Assembly: GCA_003255025.1 (NCBI GenBank)
Contig: QANY01002887.1
Location: 186,001 to 250,000 of the forward strand
DNA length: 64,000 bases
From: Datisca glomerata
Lineage: Eukaryota > Streptophyta > Magnoliopsida > Cucurbitales > Datiscaceae
Reading direction: 5' to 3'
In this document: positions 27,787 through 36,293 of the stretch, in pieces
How positions within the stretch are numbered: the stretch's first letter is position 1
Layout of the letters: each line of letters opens with the position of its first letter
The notes under the pieces: generated by a model
Seen by the model: the letters and a program-made list of their open reading frames with translations, nothing else
The model's database searches: none
What the model was told of the DNA's origin: nothing
Position numbers and translations under genes: made by a program

Positions 27787-27863
27787 TAGATTAAAATTTC
27801 TATATTAACTATTTTGTAGAAAAATATTTTTACTAATTTTTGTTTATCTTGATCTTAGTTCAC
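27787..27863. repeat. Inferred left terminal inverted repeat of the MULE
   Basis: Reading inward, ATTTCTAT.TTAACT.TTTTGTA.AAAATA and then TTTTTG.TTATC..TTAGT align with the right end. Divergence is considerable and the outer limit is blurred by a G-rich tract and one N. Confidence 0.55.
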
Positions 27864-28254
27864 TTTTCTCTCACTTTTTTTATTTTTTTTCTCATTGTTA
27901 TTCTTATAAGTTGTCCAATCAAATGTCATGGTCTACTAACTTAACACTTAAAACCTCTCTGCCCATCCCATTTCTCATTCTTCGTTTTTCATTTTTTCTA
28001 CTTCTTCTTTGTTTTCTTCTTCGTCTTCTTTCTTCTTCCTGCATCAGCAAATGATTGTTAGTTCTTCTCTCTGAAACATGTATAAGTTTTGTTTTCTTAT
28101 TTCTGGTAATATTTACTTGTCTTCTTCCTTCTTTCATGAGTTTTTCATTTTCATGAGTTTTCTAAAAATATTTATTAATTTTCTTCTTTTTAGAACGTTG
28201 TTGAAATTCATTTATTGTACATGATCACTATAAGATGATGATGTAGTGTTAAAT

Positions 28255-28625
28255 GAGGTCTACACGAGTACTACGCGAGCCTCATGTAGTCATCGTGTAG
28301 ACTACACGCAGGGTACGCGAGCCCCGTGTAGACCCCGTGTACATTACACGATCATCGTGTAGTGCATCAGGAACTTTTTCAGTAGTTCACGAGCATCGAG
28401 TAACATTAATTACACTACATGAGGAGTGAGGAGTACACGATCATCGTGTAATCCTTGTGTATAACTTATTACAGTACACGAGATCTACACGATGACTACA
28501 CGATCCTCGTGAAAGCCTCATGTACACTACATGATGCTCATGAAGGCCTTGTGGACACTACATGATGACTACACGATGCCTCTGAAAGCCTCGTGTACAC
28601 TACACAATGGTTACACAATCATCAT
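28255..28625. repeat. MULE minisatellite cluster A (TACACGA/TCGTGTA)
   Basis: Dense mixed-orientation copies of CTACACGAG, CTACACGATG and the complements CTCGTGTAG and CATCGTGTAG, ahead of the transposase relic. Many neighbouring copies face each other and could form short hairpins. Confidence 0.9.
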
Positions 28626-28679
28626 GTAATATTCCATTTCATCACGTATTCTTCTTATCTATTGCCATCACAACCTCAG

Positions 28680-30725
28680 TTGAATGAACAATGTCCTAGG
28701 TCTAGTGAAGAACATGCTGATTTGAATAAGCTTCTATTAGACACAATAAATATGGATGATTTGTATAGTGATAAAGCCGAGCTGCTTAAGGTTGCTCATA
28801 TGATGAGCATCCAGAGAAATTTTGAGTTTCGGATCTTCAAGTCAAAACAGTCAATATTGATACTTGTATGTGTTGAGAAAACATGCCCATGAGGTTACGG
28901 GCCATGAAATTAAAAAATTGTCCATACTTCAAAGTTATAAAGTTCATCAATACACATACATGCACATTTGAAGTATTGAGACATGAACACCATCAGGTTA
29001 CATATTCATTGATTGATCATTTTATAAGATTCAAATACATGGGTGTCAAATGTATATATAGGCCAAAAGACATAATTGAATATGTTTGGCTTGATTTCAG
29101 TGTCAACATAAGTTACCATAAGGCATGGATGGCTGGGAAGTATGCATTGGAATCAGTTCGAGGGTCTCCTGAAGACAACTATAGGATGATCCCAATATAT
29201 TGTCACATGTTAGAATAAAAAAATCCAGGTACTTATAATGTCTACACGAGTATTACACGAGCCTCGCGTAGCCATCATGTATACTACACAATGAGTACAC
29301 TGACCACGTGTAGTCATCGTGTAATCTTCATGAAGGGTATACTGATATTGTGCAGTCATCATGTACACGATTTTACCATCATAATGTCTACACGAGTAGT
29401 ACACGGATCTCGTGTAGTCATCGTATAATCTTCGCGAAGGGCACACTGATATCGTGTAGTCATCATGTACACTATTTTACCATCATAATGTCTACACGAG
29501 TACTACACAGATCTCGTGTAGTCTACATGATGCCTACACTGACCTCGTGTGGGCATCATGTAGTCTACACGATGCTACATTGACCTCGTGTAGGCATCTT
29601 GTAATCTACATGATGTTTACATTGATCTCGTGTACGCATCCTATACACTATGTATTTTACCGATTTTAATACAACAACATTAAATATTTTTCAAGACAAC
29701 AACACACATAGAGACCAATGAGCGTCATCATTTTAAATATTTTTTCACGGCTCTTGGGCCCTCTGTTCGTGGATTTTTCAGCTGTAAATGGCATGTCATT
29801 GCTGTTGACGCAACTGCCTTAAAAGCCAAATACAAATGAGTATTATTTGTTGTAATAGCAAAGGATGAGAACAACCAAGTATATCCCATTGCATTTGAAA
29901 TTATAGATTCAGAAAATAATGATTCATGAGAATGGTTCTTCTGTAAACTTCACGATGTAATCGGTGATCTGGAAGACTTGATGCTTATATCCAACATGCA
30001 TACAAGTGTACTGAATGTTGTACAAGTTGTCTTTCCCAATGCGTTTCATGGAGCTTGCATCTTCCAGGTGGACCAAAATATCAAATCAATTTATAAAAAG
30101 GAAGATACAATCGCATTTTTTTTAAAGCAACAAAGGTATACCATCAATCAGAATTTGATCGGTTGATGACTCATTTTACAGATATCTCCCAATATGTGTC
30201 GGTGGGGGGAGTTGATAGGCGGGCACGTTCTCATTTTGATGGAAGGCGATATAATATAATGGCTACAAATATCGCGAAATATTTGAATGAGATTTTGAAG
30301 GATGCTAGAAAGCTTCCCATTACATGCCTTATAGAACATATCCGTGATATGTTACAACCGTGGTTCTATGAACGACGAATGACTACCTTTCAATTCACCT
30401 CATAGATGATAGATTGGGTTGAGACTGATCTTAATAAGAAGCATTTTGCATCACGTACATTATCATTGTTCCCTTCCGACATCCACATTTTTTGTGTTGT
30501 GGGTCGGGGTAGGGAAGCAGTGGTAAACTTGCATCTTAAGACTTGTATGTGTAGAGAATTTGATATTAACCAATTCCATGCATTGCATGCGTTGGCTGCA
30601 TGTCGACAACGTAATATTTCCGCATACGGTATGTGTTCGAGGTTCTATAAAAATGAGGCTCTAATTGCTGTGTATGCAGAAATAATACATTCTCTCGGAG
30701 ATCAAGAAGATTGGGTCATCAGCTA
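28680..30725 (+). pseudogene. MULE transposase relic
   Basis: Exon-like pieces are 28680 to about 29233 (DNA-binding and N-terminal part, with ISYHKAWMAGKYALESVRGS and YCHML), about 29716-30160 (MULE catalytic domain: ALGPSVRGFFSCKWHVIAVD, QVYPIAFEI) and 30163-30725 (with a SWIM zinc-finger-like CMCREFD). Faults: a frameshift near 28888, stops in the catalytic domain, the second catalytic Asp of the usual ISDRH box replaced (ISNMH), and the SWIM IPCxHA motif changed to FHALHA. The gap 29234-29715 between the first two pieces behaves like an intron (GTACTT donor, ACATAG acceptor) and is almost entirely minisatellite. The enzyme would cut and paste the element; this copy cannot. Confidence 0.82.
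29238..29650. repeat. MULE minisatellite cluster B (in the transposase intron)
   Basis: The same motif family (for example ATGTCTACACGAGTACTACAC, repeated three times with a spacing of about 100 bases). It lies inside the inferred intron between the first and second transposase exons. Confidence 0.9.
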
Positions 30726-30999
30726 GGAGGTTCATGAAAACGTGATATTGCCACCTATAACGAGGCGACAAAGTGGTAGACATAGGACAGAGAGAATTCC
30801 ATTTAGAGGTGAGGAAGTAGTGAGAAAGAAGTGCACACGTTGAGGGTAAATTGACCACACCCGACAAATGTGATGAAATCCAATTCCTCTATCTCAACGG
30901 GATGATCAAATCACTTAATTATAAATAATGACTATTGTAGACTTAAATTAAATATTAATATAGAAATACACTTGTGTTTTTATTTAATAATGACATAAA

Positions 31000-34414: not shown

Positions 34415-34570
34415 TACAGATAAGTTACACGGACCTCGTGTGGTCATCATGTAGACTACATGTAGACTACATGTGATTAGTCTAACCATCGTGTAGACTA
34501 CATGATGACTATACGAGGTCAGTGTAACCATCGTGTAGTTTACACGATGACTACACGAGATCCGTGTTCA
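34415..34570. repeat. MULE minisatellite cluster F
   Basis: Short cluster of the same motif (GTGTAACCATCGTGTAG, ACACGATGACTACACGAG) between the E/K-rich part and the DUF1985 part of the minus-strand gene. Confidence 0.85.
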
Positions 34571-35754
34571 AGAAGAAAAAGGGTAGAAAATGATTTCGAA
34601 CATACCTTCTCTCCAATTACTGATCTTCAGAAACTTTTTTCTTCTTCATCCTCAGTAGGGACCAAGGAAAGAACTGTCAACTAAAAATGCAAGAAATATA
34701 AATTAGTAAATGTGAAAGTAATATATAAGTTAACTCGCCAACATAATTCATCAACATACATTCTCCTTCAAAAATATTTTTTTTGTAGATTCTCAACCGG
34801 TACTATCGTGGTCGGACACCACTTGAGAATTTTTGGCACCTTGGTCAAAACCTAGTTATCATACAAACTACCTACCAAGGGGACAGTTTCAAATACACAT
34901 GCCTATTTAAAGAAAAGAAAGTAATTCAGTATTTAACACATAAATAATTCAATACATCACTACATAGAATTAAATAAATTGTACCTAGAAGGCAAATGGA
35001 CATCCATTAAGTGAATACCCATGAACAGTAGCAGGGGATTTTTGTATTTTTTTCTTTATCTTTAAGATCACTAAAAACAACCTTTGTATTCTTCACAGCT
35101 AATTATGAGAGGTCTCCCCACAGATATTGGTTGAACGCTTCAAAGCCATCAACCAAAACTAACAATCTCTTCTCAATTAGGGTACAGTACTCTTTCCCCA
35201 ACAGAAAATGCTCTAGCAAATAAATCAGAGCCATCTTGACCGCATGAGAATCTGATTTATATTTAGAGCTCATGAACTTCTCCTCCAACTTACCCATGGT
35301 TATTGATTGAGCTTTGGGAAAGTATAGATCATAGAGTTTGTTAGGGTCACAAGTCTTCTTCTCATCCCGGACTTCACTGAACTTTAGTCCGGTCATTAAC
35401 AAGAACTCCTTCTTGGAGAAGCACGATGGCTCCTCATTGATAAGAAAATGGATCTTCTTCTCAGATGGAGTGCCGCCGACATATTCGGCCTCCCTGGCCA
35501 GCACCTAGCGGGAAGACAGTTGCTAAAAACTTTAAGGATGTGAGATCAAGGAGATAGCCAAAGCATGTCCCCCTAAATAGGGAGAGTTGAGGAGATGTCA
35601 GCTTGGTCTTGATAACCTCTATGCAGTGGGTATTGCACTTTGCATTGACCCGCGATTATGAAATTCCATTAACGTCATGGACGAATCTTAGTTGCATATT
35701 TAATGAAGCCATAACCTGTAAAATATTCAATGCAAACATAAGATCATGAAATGT

Positions 35755-35850
35755 ACATGATGCTCGTGTAGTCATCGTGTAGACTACACGAGGGGTACAC
35801 AATCCTCATGTAGTCCTCGTGTAGCTACACGAGGCATACACGACCCTCGT
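35755..35850. repeat. MULE minisatellite cluster G
   Basis: Smallest cluster: ATGCTCGTGTAGTCATCGTG, GACTACACGAGG and CCTCGTGTAG, 5' to the DUF1985 exon on the minus strand. Confidence 0.85.
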
Positions 35851-36207
35851 TGTTGGGATTACGCATCCACAAAAAACCTAAACGCAGAAATCCAGGAAAA
35901 AAACCTTAAGAAACCCAGAAAAAATACCTAAAAAACACCTCAGGATCCTAAACAAAAACTTAGAAATCCAAAAACTTACATTGTTATTTTTTCTTGCTGT
36001 GGGAGACGAAAACTCAAGGATTTACAGAGAGAGATGCTGCGACTTCAAGAGAGAGAGATAATAACAATAAGAGAGAAATGAGGGAAACGAAAGAGTGAAG
36101 TTTCGTGTAATGAGAAAGTGTAATCATCACTTTTTTTGTCGTCGTTTAAAATTCGTGAATGTGTTTTTTGATAACTTCACAGACCGATTTTGAATTGAAG
36201 GTGGACT

Positions 36208-36293
36208 CGTGACTAAGGTAAGCAAAAGTTATTGAAAATGATCTATTTTTAGAAAATGGGTTAGTCTAGAAATCTAATTTAGCAAAAATACCC
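36208..36293. repeat. Inferred right terminal inverted repeat of the MULE
   Basis: The reverse complement starts GGGTATTTTTGCTAAATTAG, a typical plant MULE terminus, and then aligns with the left end. The first base outside is 36294, about 80 bases before the GluRS start codon. Confidence 0.6.

Follow-up and report, generated by a model that had tools for sequence, protein, structure and literature searches.

The Datisca glomerata stretch analysed here (contig QANY01002887.1, positions 186,001 to 250,000; 64,000 nucleotides, hereafter the window) contains a degenerate Mutator-like element (MULE) whose non-coding gaps are filled with arrays of the short core TACACGA, read in both orientations. 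The arrays are confined to the gaps between exons, are associated with the same MULE family in samples from the host genome, stand at fixed positions in its coding relatives, are retained in gene-free derivatives, and give way to arrays of a different core in a sister lineage. Beside its transposase, the element appears to encode a protein in which DUF1985 is joined to an acidic repeat region and an Ulp1/C48 peptidase domain, and the arrays are probably the cis-acting target sites of this protein, acting in anti-silencing in the manner of the VANC proteins of Arabidopsis. The DUF1985 protein would bind the TACACGA sites, presented as dense two-way repeats at a pitch of about 10.5 bp in leaders, introns and spacer, and binding would strip silencing marks from the element and from its gene-free relatives. 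The sites would accumulate in the gaps by tandem duplication, because exons cannot hold such repeats. We infer all three components of this scheme, namely DUF1985 as the reader, removal of methylation, and participation of the C48 domain.

A two-way motif confined to the gaps of one element

The window contains 61 exact cores (TACACGA or TCGTGTA), against a shuffle mean of 3.4, and 58 of them lie between 28261 and 36109: 57 in seven clusters and one at 36103, towards the right end of the element. Under an exon model inferred from splice consensus and homology (seven rows of homologues in the case of the transposase), none of the 58 falls within the 4,604 bp of exon and all fall within the 3,903 bp that the element has outside its exons; if one mismatch is tolerated, the counts become 5 and 143, respectively. 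The remaining 55.5 kb of the window has three exact cores. Independent random placement of the seven clusters left all of them non-coding in 0/20,000 trials, and the less powerful test of rigid circular shifts left the exons free of hits in 62/8,507. An earlier note on this DNA had described seven clusters with a common core in both orientations and exons free of it, which these counts bear out. Its further remark that almost every gap is colonised is mostly right, with the reservation that exact cores are lacking from four short introns (73–109 bp) and from the first 468 bp of the element, and that the last 437 bp contains a single one. Subtraction of the arrays would leave the four array-bearing introns at 52–93 bp, and for this reason the arrays look like growth within otherwise small introns.

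Successive cores are oriented ++-- and spaced 11, 10, 11 and 10 bp apart, which together makes a 42-bp repeat that looks identical on both strands. For pair distances up to 37 bp, the mean cosine at a 10.5-bp period is 0.636, whereas 2,000 random placements gave a null mean of 0.036 and never exceeded 0.18. In six clusters, 87/94 neighbouring gaps fit multiples of 10.5 bp to within 1 bp, a tolerance that covers 24% of integer gaps by chance. The single minisatellite of the earlier note is indeed one motif family, but it is not uniform, as the six clusters on the 42-bp lattice are joined by one, at 31.0 kb, of a 14/109-bp type. Among the 20 relatives fetched from the genome, 1,168 of 1,323 gaps between neighbouring cores agree with the 10.5-bp lattice, and the mean cosine exceeds 0.5 in 54 of their 84 arrays and is below 0.2 in three; these arrays are of common descent, so their phasing is no independent replication, and a 21-bp unit could yield the 10.5-bp pitch by coincidence.

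Conservation of the cores was compared with that of the spacers by fixing the register with two of the cores and scoring the remaining pair, for each of six choices of training pair. In the four unambiguous registers, a held-out core matches in 4.7–5.5 of its 7 letters, compared with 1.8 at randomly chosen positions, and agreement between clusters is 0.57–0.64 for cores and 0.34–0.42 for spacers. The two registers set on cores 21 bp from each other are ambiguous, the lattice being superimposable on itself, and there cores and spacers differ little (0.44 vs 0.42, and 0.46 vs 0.43). Across 135 lattice cores the CG dinucleotide is kept in 86, with TG in 22 and CA in 14.

Relatives and a second word in the host genome

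The host genome was scanned as 678 Mb in 1,358 contigs, with conclusions about it resting on samples and best-of lists. A 17-bp palindromic core matches at 3,363 forward places when one mismatch is tolerated; a reversed control pattern has no forward match and one reverse match. Among the matches listed there were 25 distinct places up to C37:440462, and 10 kb was fetched around 20 of these, regardless of MULEs; the five left out (C2:9770, C5:2564, C7:3951, C12:5299 and C24:18511) are mostly near contig ends. Proteins of this MULE are encoded at 16/20 of the motif loci (E 1e-5), compared with 0/6 other genome stretches and 0/10 tiles of the window; these controls were 5 kb long, and none exceeded a single exact core. 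Most of these loci are matched by the left end of the window element, at 75–87%.

The four motif loci with no match to a MULE protein are L018, L023, L028 and L031. Two of them contain a gene-free MULE flanked by a perfect 9-bp target site duplication: L023 (4243–6910; 2,668 bp), with duplication AATGGAAAA and terminal repeats of 583 bp at 82% identity, and L028 (3805–5970; 2,166 bp), with duplication CACATAAAT. Every exact core at these loci lies inside the gene-free element, 36/36 in L023 and 23/23 in L028. Both derivatives consist of long inverted ends together with several array-and-spacer modules. Array-and-spacer sequence of L018, L023 and L028 recurs in the coding copy L032, where it lies upstream of the transposase. 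L031 is the weakest locus, with five exact cores and similarity limited to the array and spacer modules. Outside the arrays, a 1.9-kb repeat at 83% identity, probably another mobile element, is common to L025 (7452–9338) and L031 (396–2334).

The positions of the arrays are fixed in the coding relatives. The transposase intron carries its array in 8/9 scorable copies (exception L027), the 3' spacer in 10/11 (exception L014), and the leader in 13/13, where it should be borne in mind that the leader array was usually what caused a locus to be picked, as was the spacer array in L016 and L021, a form of selection from which the intron arrays are free. Coding matches make up 23.3 of the 200 kb at the 20 sampled loci, and contain 2 of 742 exact cores; the transposase match of L014 includes one chain of five cores, none of them exact. 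In a sample drawn blind to the motif, consisting of 20 DUF1985 copies spread down the best 150 of 2,076 first-look candidates, with 1.2 kb read upstream of each, 19/20 have at least three exact cores, and the near edge of the array lies 237–307 bp from the DUF1985 match. Neither a spread of the motif without MULEs nor its establishment in the exons of relatives, the two outcomes that the earlier note had named as fatal to its proposal, was seen in these samples, and the comparison of gap positions among copies that it had proposed shows the motif at the same gaps. Its central claim stands: the motif family belongs with a single MULE, keeps to its gaps, and is no product of ordinary satellite growth.

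A further sample comprised 16 DUF1985 copies outside the first list, taken from a Pfam search in which 150 of 2,290 candidates were scored, with 880 bp read upstream. Five of these (L066, L069, L071, L072 and L074) form a sister clade, B, with DUF1985 domains 35–39% identical to that of the window; the other four copies are 63–80% identical to L066. All five have palindromic arrays of TACTTGA upstream, with 9–22 exact cores and no TACACGA, while the loci of the window's own clade, A, have 979 TACACGA against 17 TACTTGA in 224 kb. With TACACGA in 19/20 copies of clade A and TACTTGA in 5/5 of clade B, the word changes with the lineage of the element. The TACTTGA cores are paired at 12 bp, with repeats at 30–31, 52 and 82 bp, and a cosine scan over pairs up to 37 bp nonetheless peaks at 10.5 (0.54). 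The remaining 11 copies belong to a third group (L059–L065, L067, L068, L070 and L073), 27–31% identical, several of which have acidic-repeat sequence upstream in place of an array. In a DUF1985 tree of 20 rows, four of them for clade A, rooted at the midpoint, the three groups separate with support of 99/98 for clade A, 96/94 for clade B, and 100/100 for the third.

Anatomy of the element and its surroundings

Table 1. Features of the MULE copy in the window (positions numbered from the first letter of the window).
Feature	Position	Strand	Basis
Whole MULE copy, degenerate (stops, frameshifts)	27785..36293	.	sequence, frames, terminal repeats
Left degenerate terminal inverted repeat, alignable part	27785..27849	+	
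Array 1, leader upstream of transposase	28255..28635	.	11 exact cores, lattice pattern
Transposase, first inferred exon, frameshifted	28641..29230	+	
Transposase intron, 461 bp, of which about 409 bp is array	29231..29691	+	
Array 2, inside transposase intron	29240..29648	.	12 exact cores
Transposase, second inferred exon, MULE domain PF10551, in-frame stops	29692..30850	+	
Array 3, spacer between convergent 3' ends; 14/109-bp type, off the 10.5-bp lattice	30995..31505	.	12 exact cores
Putative Ulp1/C48 peptidase, last exon; Cys of triad	31570..31738	-	PF02902, E 5.1e-5
Putative Ulp1/C48 peptidase, main exon; His of triad, Asn at Asp position	31828..32235	-	PF02902, E 1.2e-7
Array 4, intron of DUF1985-C48 gene	32259..32432	.	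2 exact cores, 42-bp period, mean cosine 0.97
Array 5, intron of DUF1985-C48 gene; strongest hairpin	32770..33158	.	10 exact cores, 42-bp period
Inferred exon, acidic Glu/Lys tandem-repeat region	33193..34371	-	TTC-rich tandem repeats, frames
Array 6, intron of DUF1985-C48 gene	34420..34575	.	4 exact cores, 42-bp period
VANC-like gene, first coding exon; DUF1985 domain at 35103–35504	34987..35715	-	
Array 7, 5' leader of DUF1985 gene	35755..35855	.	6 exact cores
Right degenerate terminal inverted repeat, alignable part	36216..36283	-	

The transposase domain is detected at E 1.9e-16 on the plus strand, and the transposase is 33–46% identical to its homologues, with named matches in Tripterygium, Prunus, Malus, Acer, Citrus, Vitis and Nicotiana. 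None of these is a cucurbit, and a cucurbit origin, suggested by the likeness to melon MULEs that carry Ulp1, was set aside on that account. The intron that carries array 2 falls at KNPG|T, a point where the homologues are unbroken in the seven-row comparison. On the minus strand, the DUF1985 domain (PF09331) is found at E 3.3e-18; it and the C48 domain lie on splice-compatible exons of the inferred model, in an order that is kept in relatives. The residues of the C48 triad (window 31570–32235, compared with L013–L032) are His in 11/12 relatives, Asn at the Asp position in 11/12 and Cys in 11/11, suggesting a family-wide His-Asn-Cys variant, for which protease activity is possible.

No DUF1985 homologue was found at E 0.001 in the protein collection (5,814 candidates), and the full composite protein retrieved two C48 proteins only (7,996 candidates scored). 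Protein-based scans of IMG/VR gave no relative of the element proteins, and pattern scans of the same database gave four contigs with one match each, 2–5 cores per fetched stretch and no arrays. In the PDB, a sequence search with the DUF1985 domain had no match at E up to 10, and a longer piece had one irrelevant weak match.

The right terminus of the element, read inwards, is GGGTATTTTTGC, and the left terminus is masked by an N at 27786 beside a G-rich run, which leaves the target duplication of this copy unreadable; this single N stands exactly at the left end and may be an assembly join. The terminal inverted repeats are degenerate, and their alignment scores 74, against a shuffled mean of 46.1 and a maximum of 65 (0/1,000 as high). 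Just downstream, from 36331 onwards on the plus strand, lies what we take, from its motif, to be a glutamyl-tRNA synthetase gene, and the MULE may occupy its promoter or 5' untranslated region. Elsewhere in the window, 51258–52401 is a separate tandem array of units of about 88 bp (and 45 bp), with no TACACGA.

Candidate readers of the arrays

Two aspects of this analysis go beyond the earlier note: the helical spacing and the link to VANC proteins. VANC21 and VANC6 are DUF1985 proteins of the Arabidopsis VANDAL MULEs that act on or bind short motifs, and these motifs grow as tandem repeats in the introns, intergenic and terminal non-coding regions of the MULE concerned (Hosaka et al., PMC5735166). 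The same paper describes VANC proteins with repeat-rich variable regions, and motifs of related proteins that differ by at least two bases. The Datisca element resembles this closely: a MULE-encoded DUF1985 domain; a motif dense in the introns, intergenic spacer and leaders of its own element, near absent from coding sequence, and, among the 20 motif loci and 16 controls, enriched in the MULE family and rare elsewhere; growth by tandem repetition; words about two bases apart in related DUF1985 lineages; and a repeat-rich variable protein region. Perfect 9-bp target site duplications, as expected of MULEs, are present in gene-free relatives. The terminal repeats, which in VANDAL elements are degenerate (Sasaki et al. 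2023, PMC10398659), give a mixed picture: that of the window copy is degenerate over about 66 bp, but that of L023 runs to 583 bp at 82%. Each testable anatomical feature appears to fit a VANC system except the same-orientation layout. The core is a different one, TACACGA or TACTTGA rather than the YAGTATTAY or AGTTGTMC of Arabidopsis (PMC5735166), and the candidate protein would combine DUF1985 with an Ulp1 domain and belongs to another plant genome, its binding and its effect on methylation being predicted ones.

The Ulp1 domain has a parallel in the KIU genes of non-TIR MULEs, VANC genes that carry Ulp1 and that, in the sections consulted of a 2026 review (PMC13317346), which are silent on array geometry, act likewise, motif-specifically and in non-coding regions, and are conserved in eudicots; set against them, the triad here is the His-Asn-Cys variant in 11/12 relatives scored. 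The CUMULE-type MULEs of melon (van Leeuwen et al. 2007) reportedly unite a Mutator-like transposase and an Ulp1 protease in one element, but are not known to have gap-filling arrays of the present kind. A literature search, in which the letters TACACGA were not used as a query, found no prior description of these arrays. The phrase helical periodicity is absent from the VANC papers examined. The abstract of Sasaki et al. 2022 reportedly names helical periodicity of the motifs as a determinant; if so, the 10.5-bp pitch would be one more point of agreement with the known system and not a new trait.

The subterminal repeats of En/Spm are sites for TnpA, a transposase-linked regulator. The arrays could similarly bind the transposase, or a regulator linked to it, for transposition or self-regulation, and the earlier note had proposed internal transposase-binding sites. 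The persistence of short two-way repeats in gene-free derivatives whose target duplications are intact fits a need for mobility in cis, and the transposase diverges alongside the motif in the same element. However, the arrays fill introns and the central spacer rather than the ends, where the outer left 468 bp has no exact core and the right 437 bp has one, and in the published precedent (PMC5735166) it is to the DUF1985 protein rather than to the transposase that repeats of this gap-filling kind are tied. We consider this explanation unlikely; protein-binding sites nevertheless come nearest of the three ideas in the earlier note, with the DUF1985-Ulp1 protein as the likeliest reader. The fixed gap positions and the different word of the sister lineage speak against its proposal of a self-spreading minisatellite. 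In this version a selfish repeat was seeded once in a MULE ancestor, spread among the gaps by slippage and gene conversion, and was tolerated only there, its pitch being a coincidence of a 21-bp palindromic unit. Homogenisation within clusters and cluster-specific variants are indeed plain, and common descent means that the phasing of 84 arrays does not represent 84 independent events. Yet the motif is near absent outside the MULE in the samples taken, arrays are retained as a main content of gene-free derivatives, and cores are conserved above spacers in the four unambiguous registers, if little so in the two ambiguous ones; replacement of the word throughout a clade, with position and palindromic layout unchanged, is not predicted either, and such an origin seems quite improbable.

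The third idea, that the arrays are sources of hairpin RNA, with spliced introns folding into long duplexes that feed small RNAs onto the element, draws on a real property. All seven clusters fold far beyond dinucleotide shuffles on both strands (z -5.4 to -16.7, 40 shuffles each), with z -19 for the minus strand of array 5 in a separate test of 100 shuffles, and the targets of RNA-directed DNA methylation and of VANC overlap in Arabidopsis (PMC10398659). Any two-way array of one word folds in this manner, however, and the folding is probably just a by-product; a hairpin role leaves unpredicted the 10.5-bp spacing, the switch of word with protein lineage and the fixed distance from DUF1985, and feeding silencing would harm the element. 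This is the least probable of the explanations considered, and a very remote one.

Several observations weigh against the arrays being targets of a VANC-type protein. Co-divergence cannot tell DUF1985 from the transposase as reader, since both travel in one element. The arrays are palindromic and two-way, whereas VANC21 motifs share one orientation, a feature described for VANC21 only and not clearly a defining one, and the TACACGA core includes a CpG, which VANC21 motifs do not (PMC5735166). The lattice has its exceptions: array 3 is off it, with a mean cosine of 0.07, and only 16/104 neighbouring gaps fit it in the TACTTGA clade, so the helical lattice is not common to the clades in the same form. 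L014 (spacer) and L027 (transposase intron) each have one gap with no array, and upstream of DUF1985 in L044 exact cores are absent, although six are counted when one mismatch is tolerated. In the third DUF1985 group, 0/11 copies have an array of either word in the 880 bp upstream, and DUF1985 is therefore not always accompanied by arrays; these may be DUF1985 genes of a different layout, or elements whose arrays lie elsewhere. A single-sequence structural model of the DUF1985 domain was too poor (mean predicted local distance difference test score 37) for a DNA-binding fold to be judged.

A more elaborate form of the VANC-type scheme can be drawn, although it is speculative and we regard it as rather doubtful. 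DUF1985-Ulp1 dimers might sit on one face of the dyad-symmetric array at its 10.5-bp pitch, making the arrays self-addressed landing strips for the element's own SUMO protease. Given the CpG within TACACGA, methylation may govern binding, providing a switch between silenced and active states. The sister lineages would have re-coded TACACGA to TACTTGA while keeping the place and the palindromic layout, resulting in two separate private systems within one genome.

Should the arrays prove to be targets of a VANC-type anti-silencing protein, the arms race known from Arabidopsis would have been waged extensively in a second plant genome, where one motif has matches in the thousands and lineages of elements use no fewer than two words of their own. 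The elements would constitute self-contained, sequence-specific anti-silencing modules, and the natural pairs of protein and word (A with A, B with B) would offer material for mapping the residues that read DNA. It would also account for transposon introns swollen with two-way repeats, which annotation pipelines would file as unrelated minisatellites.

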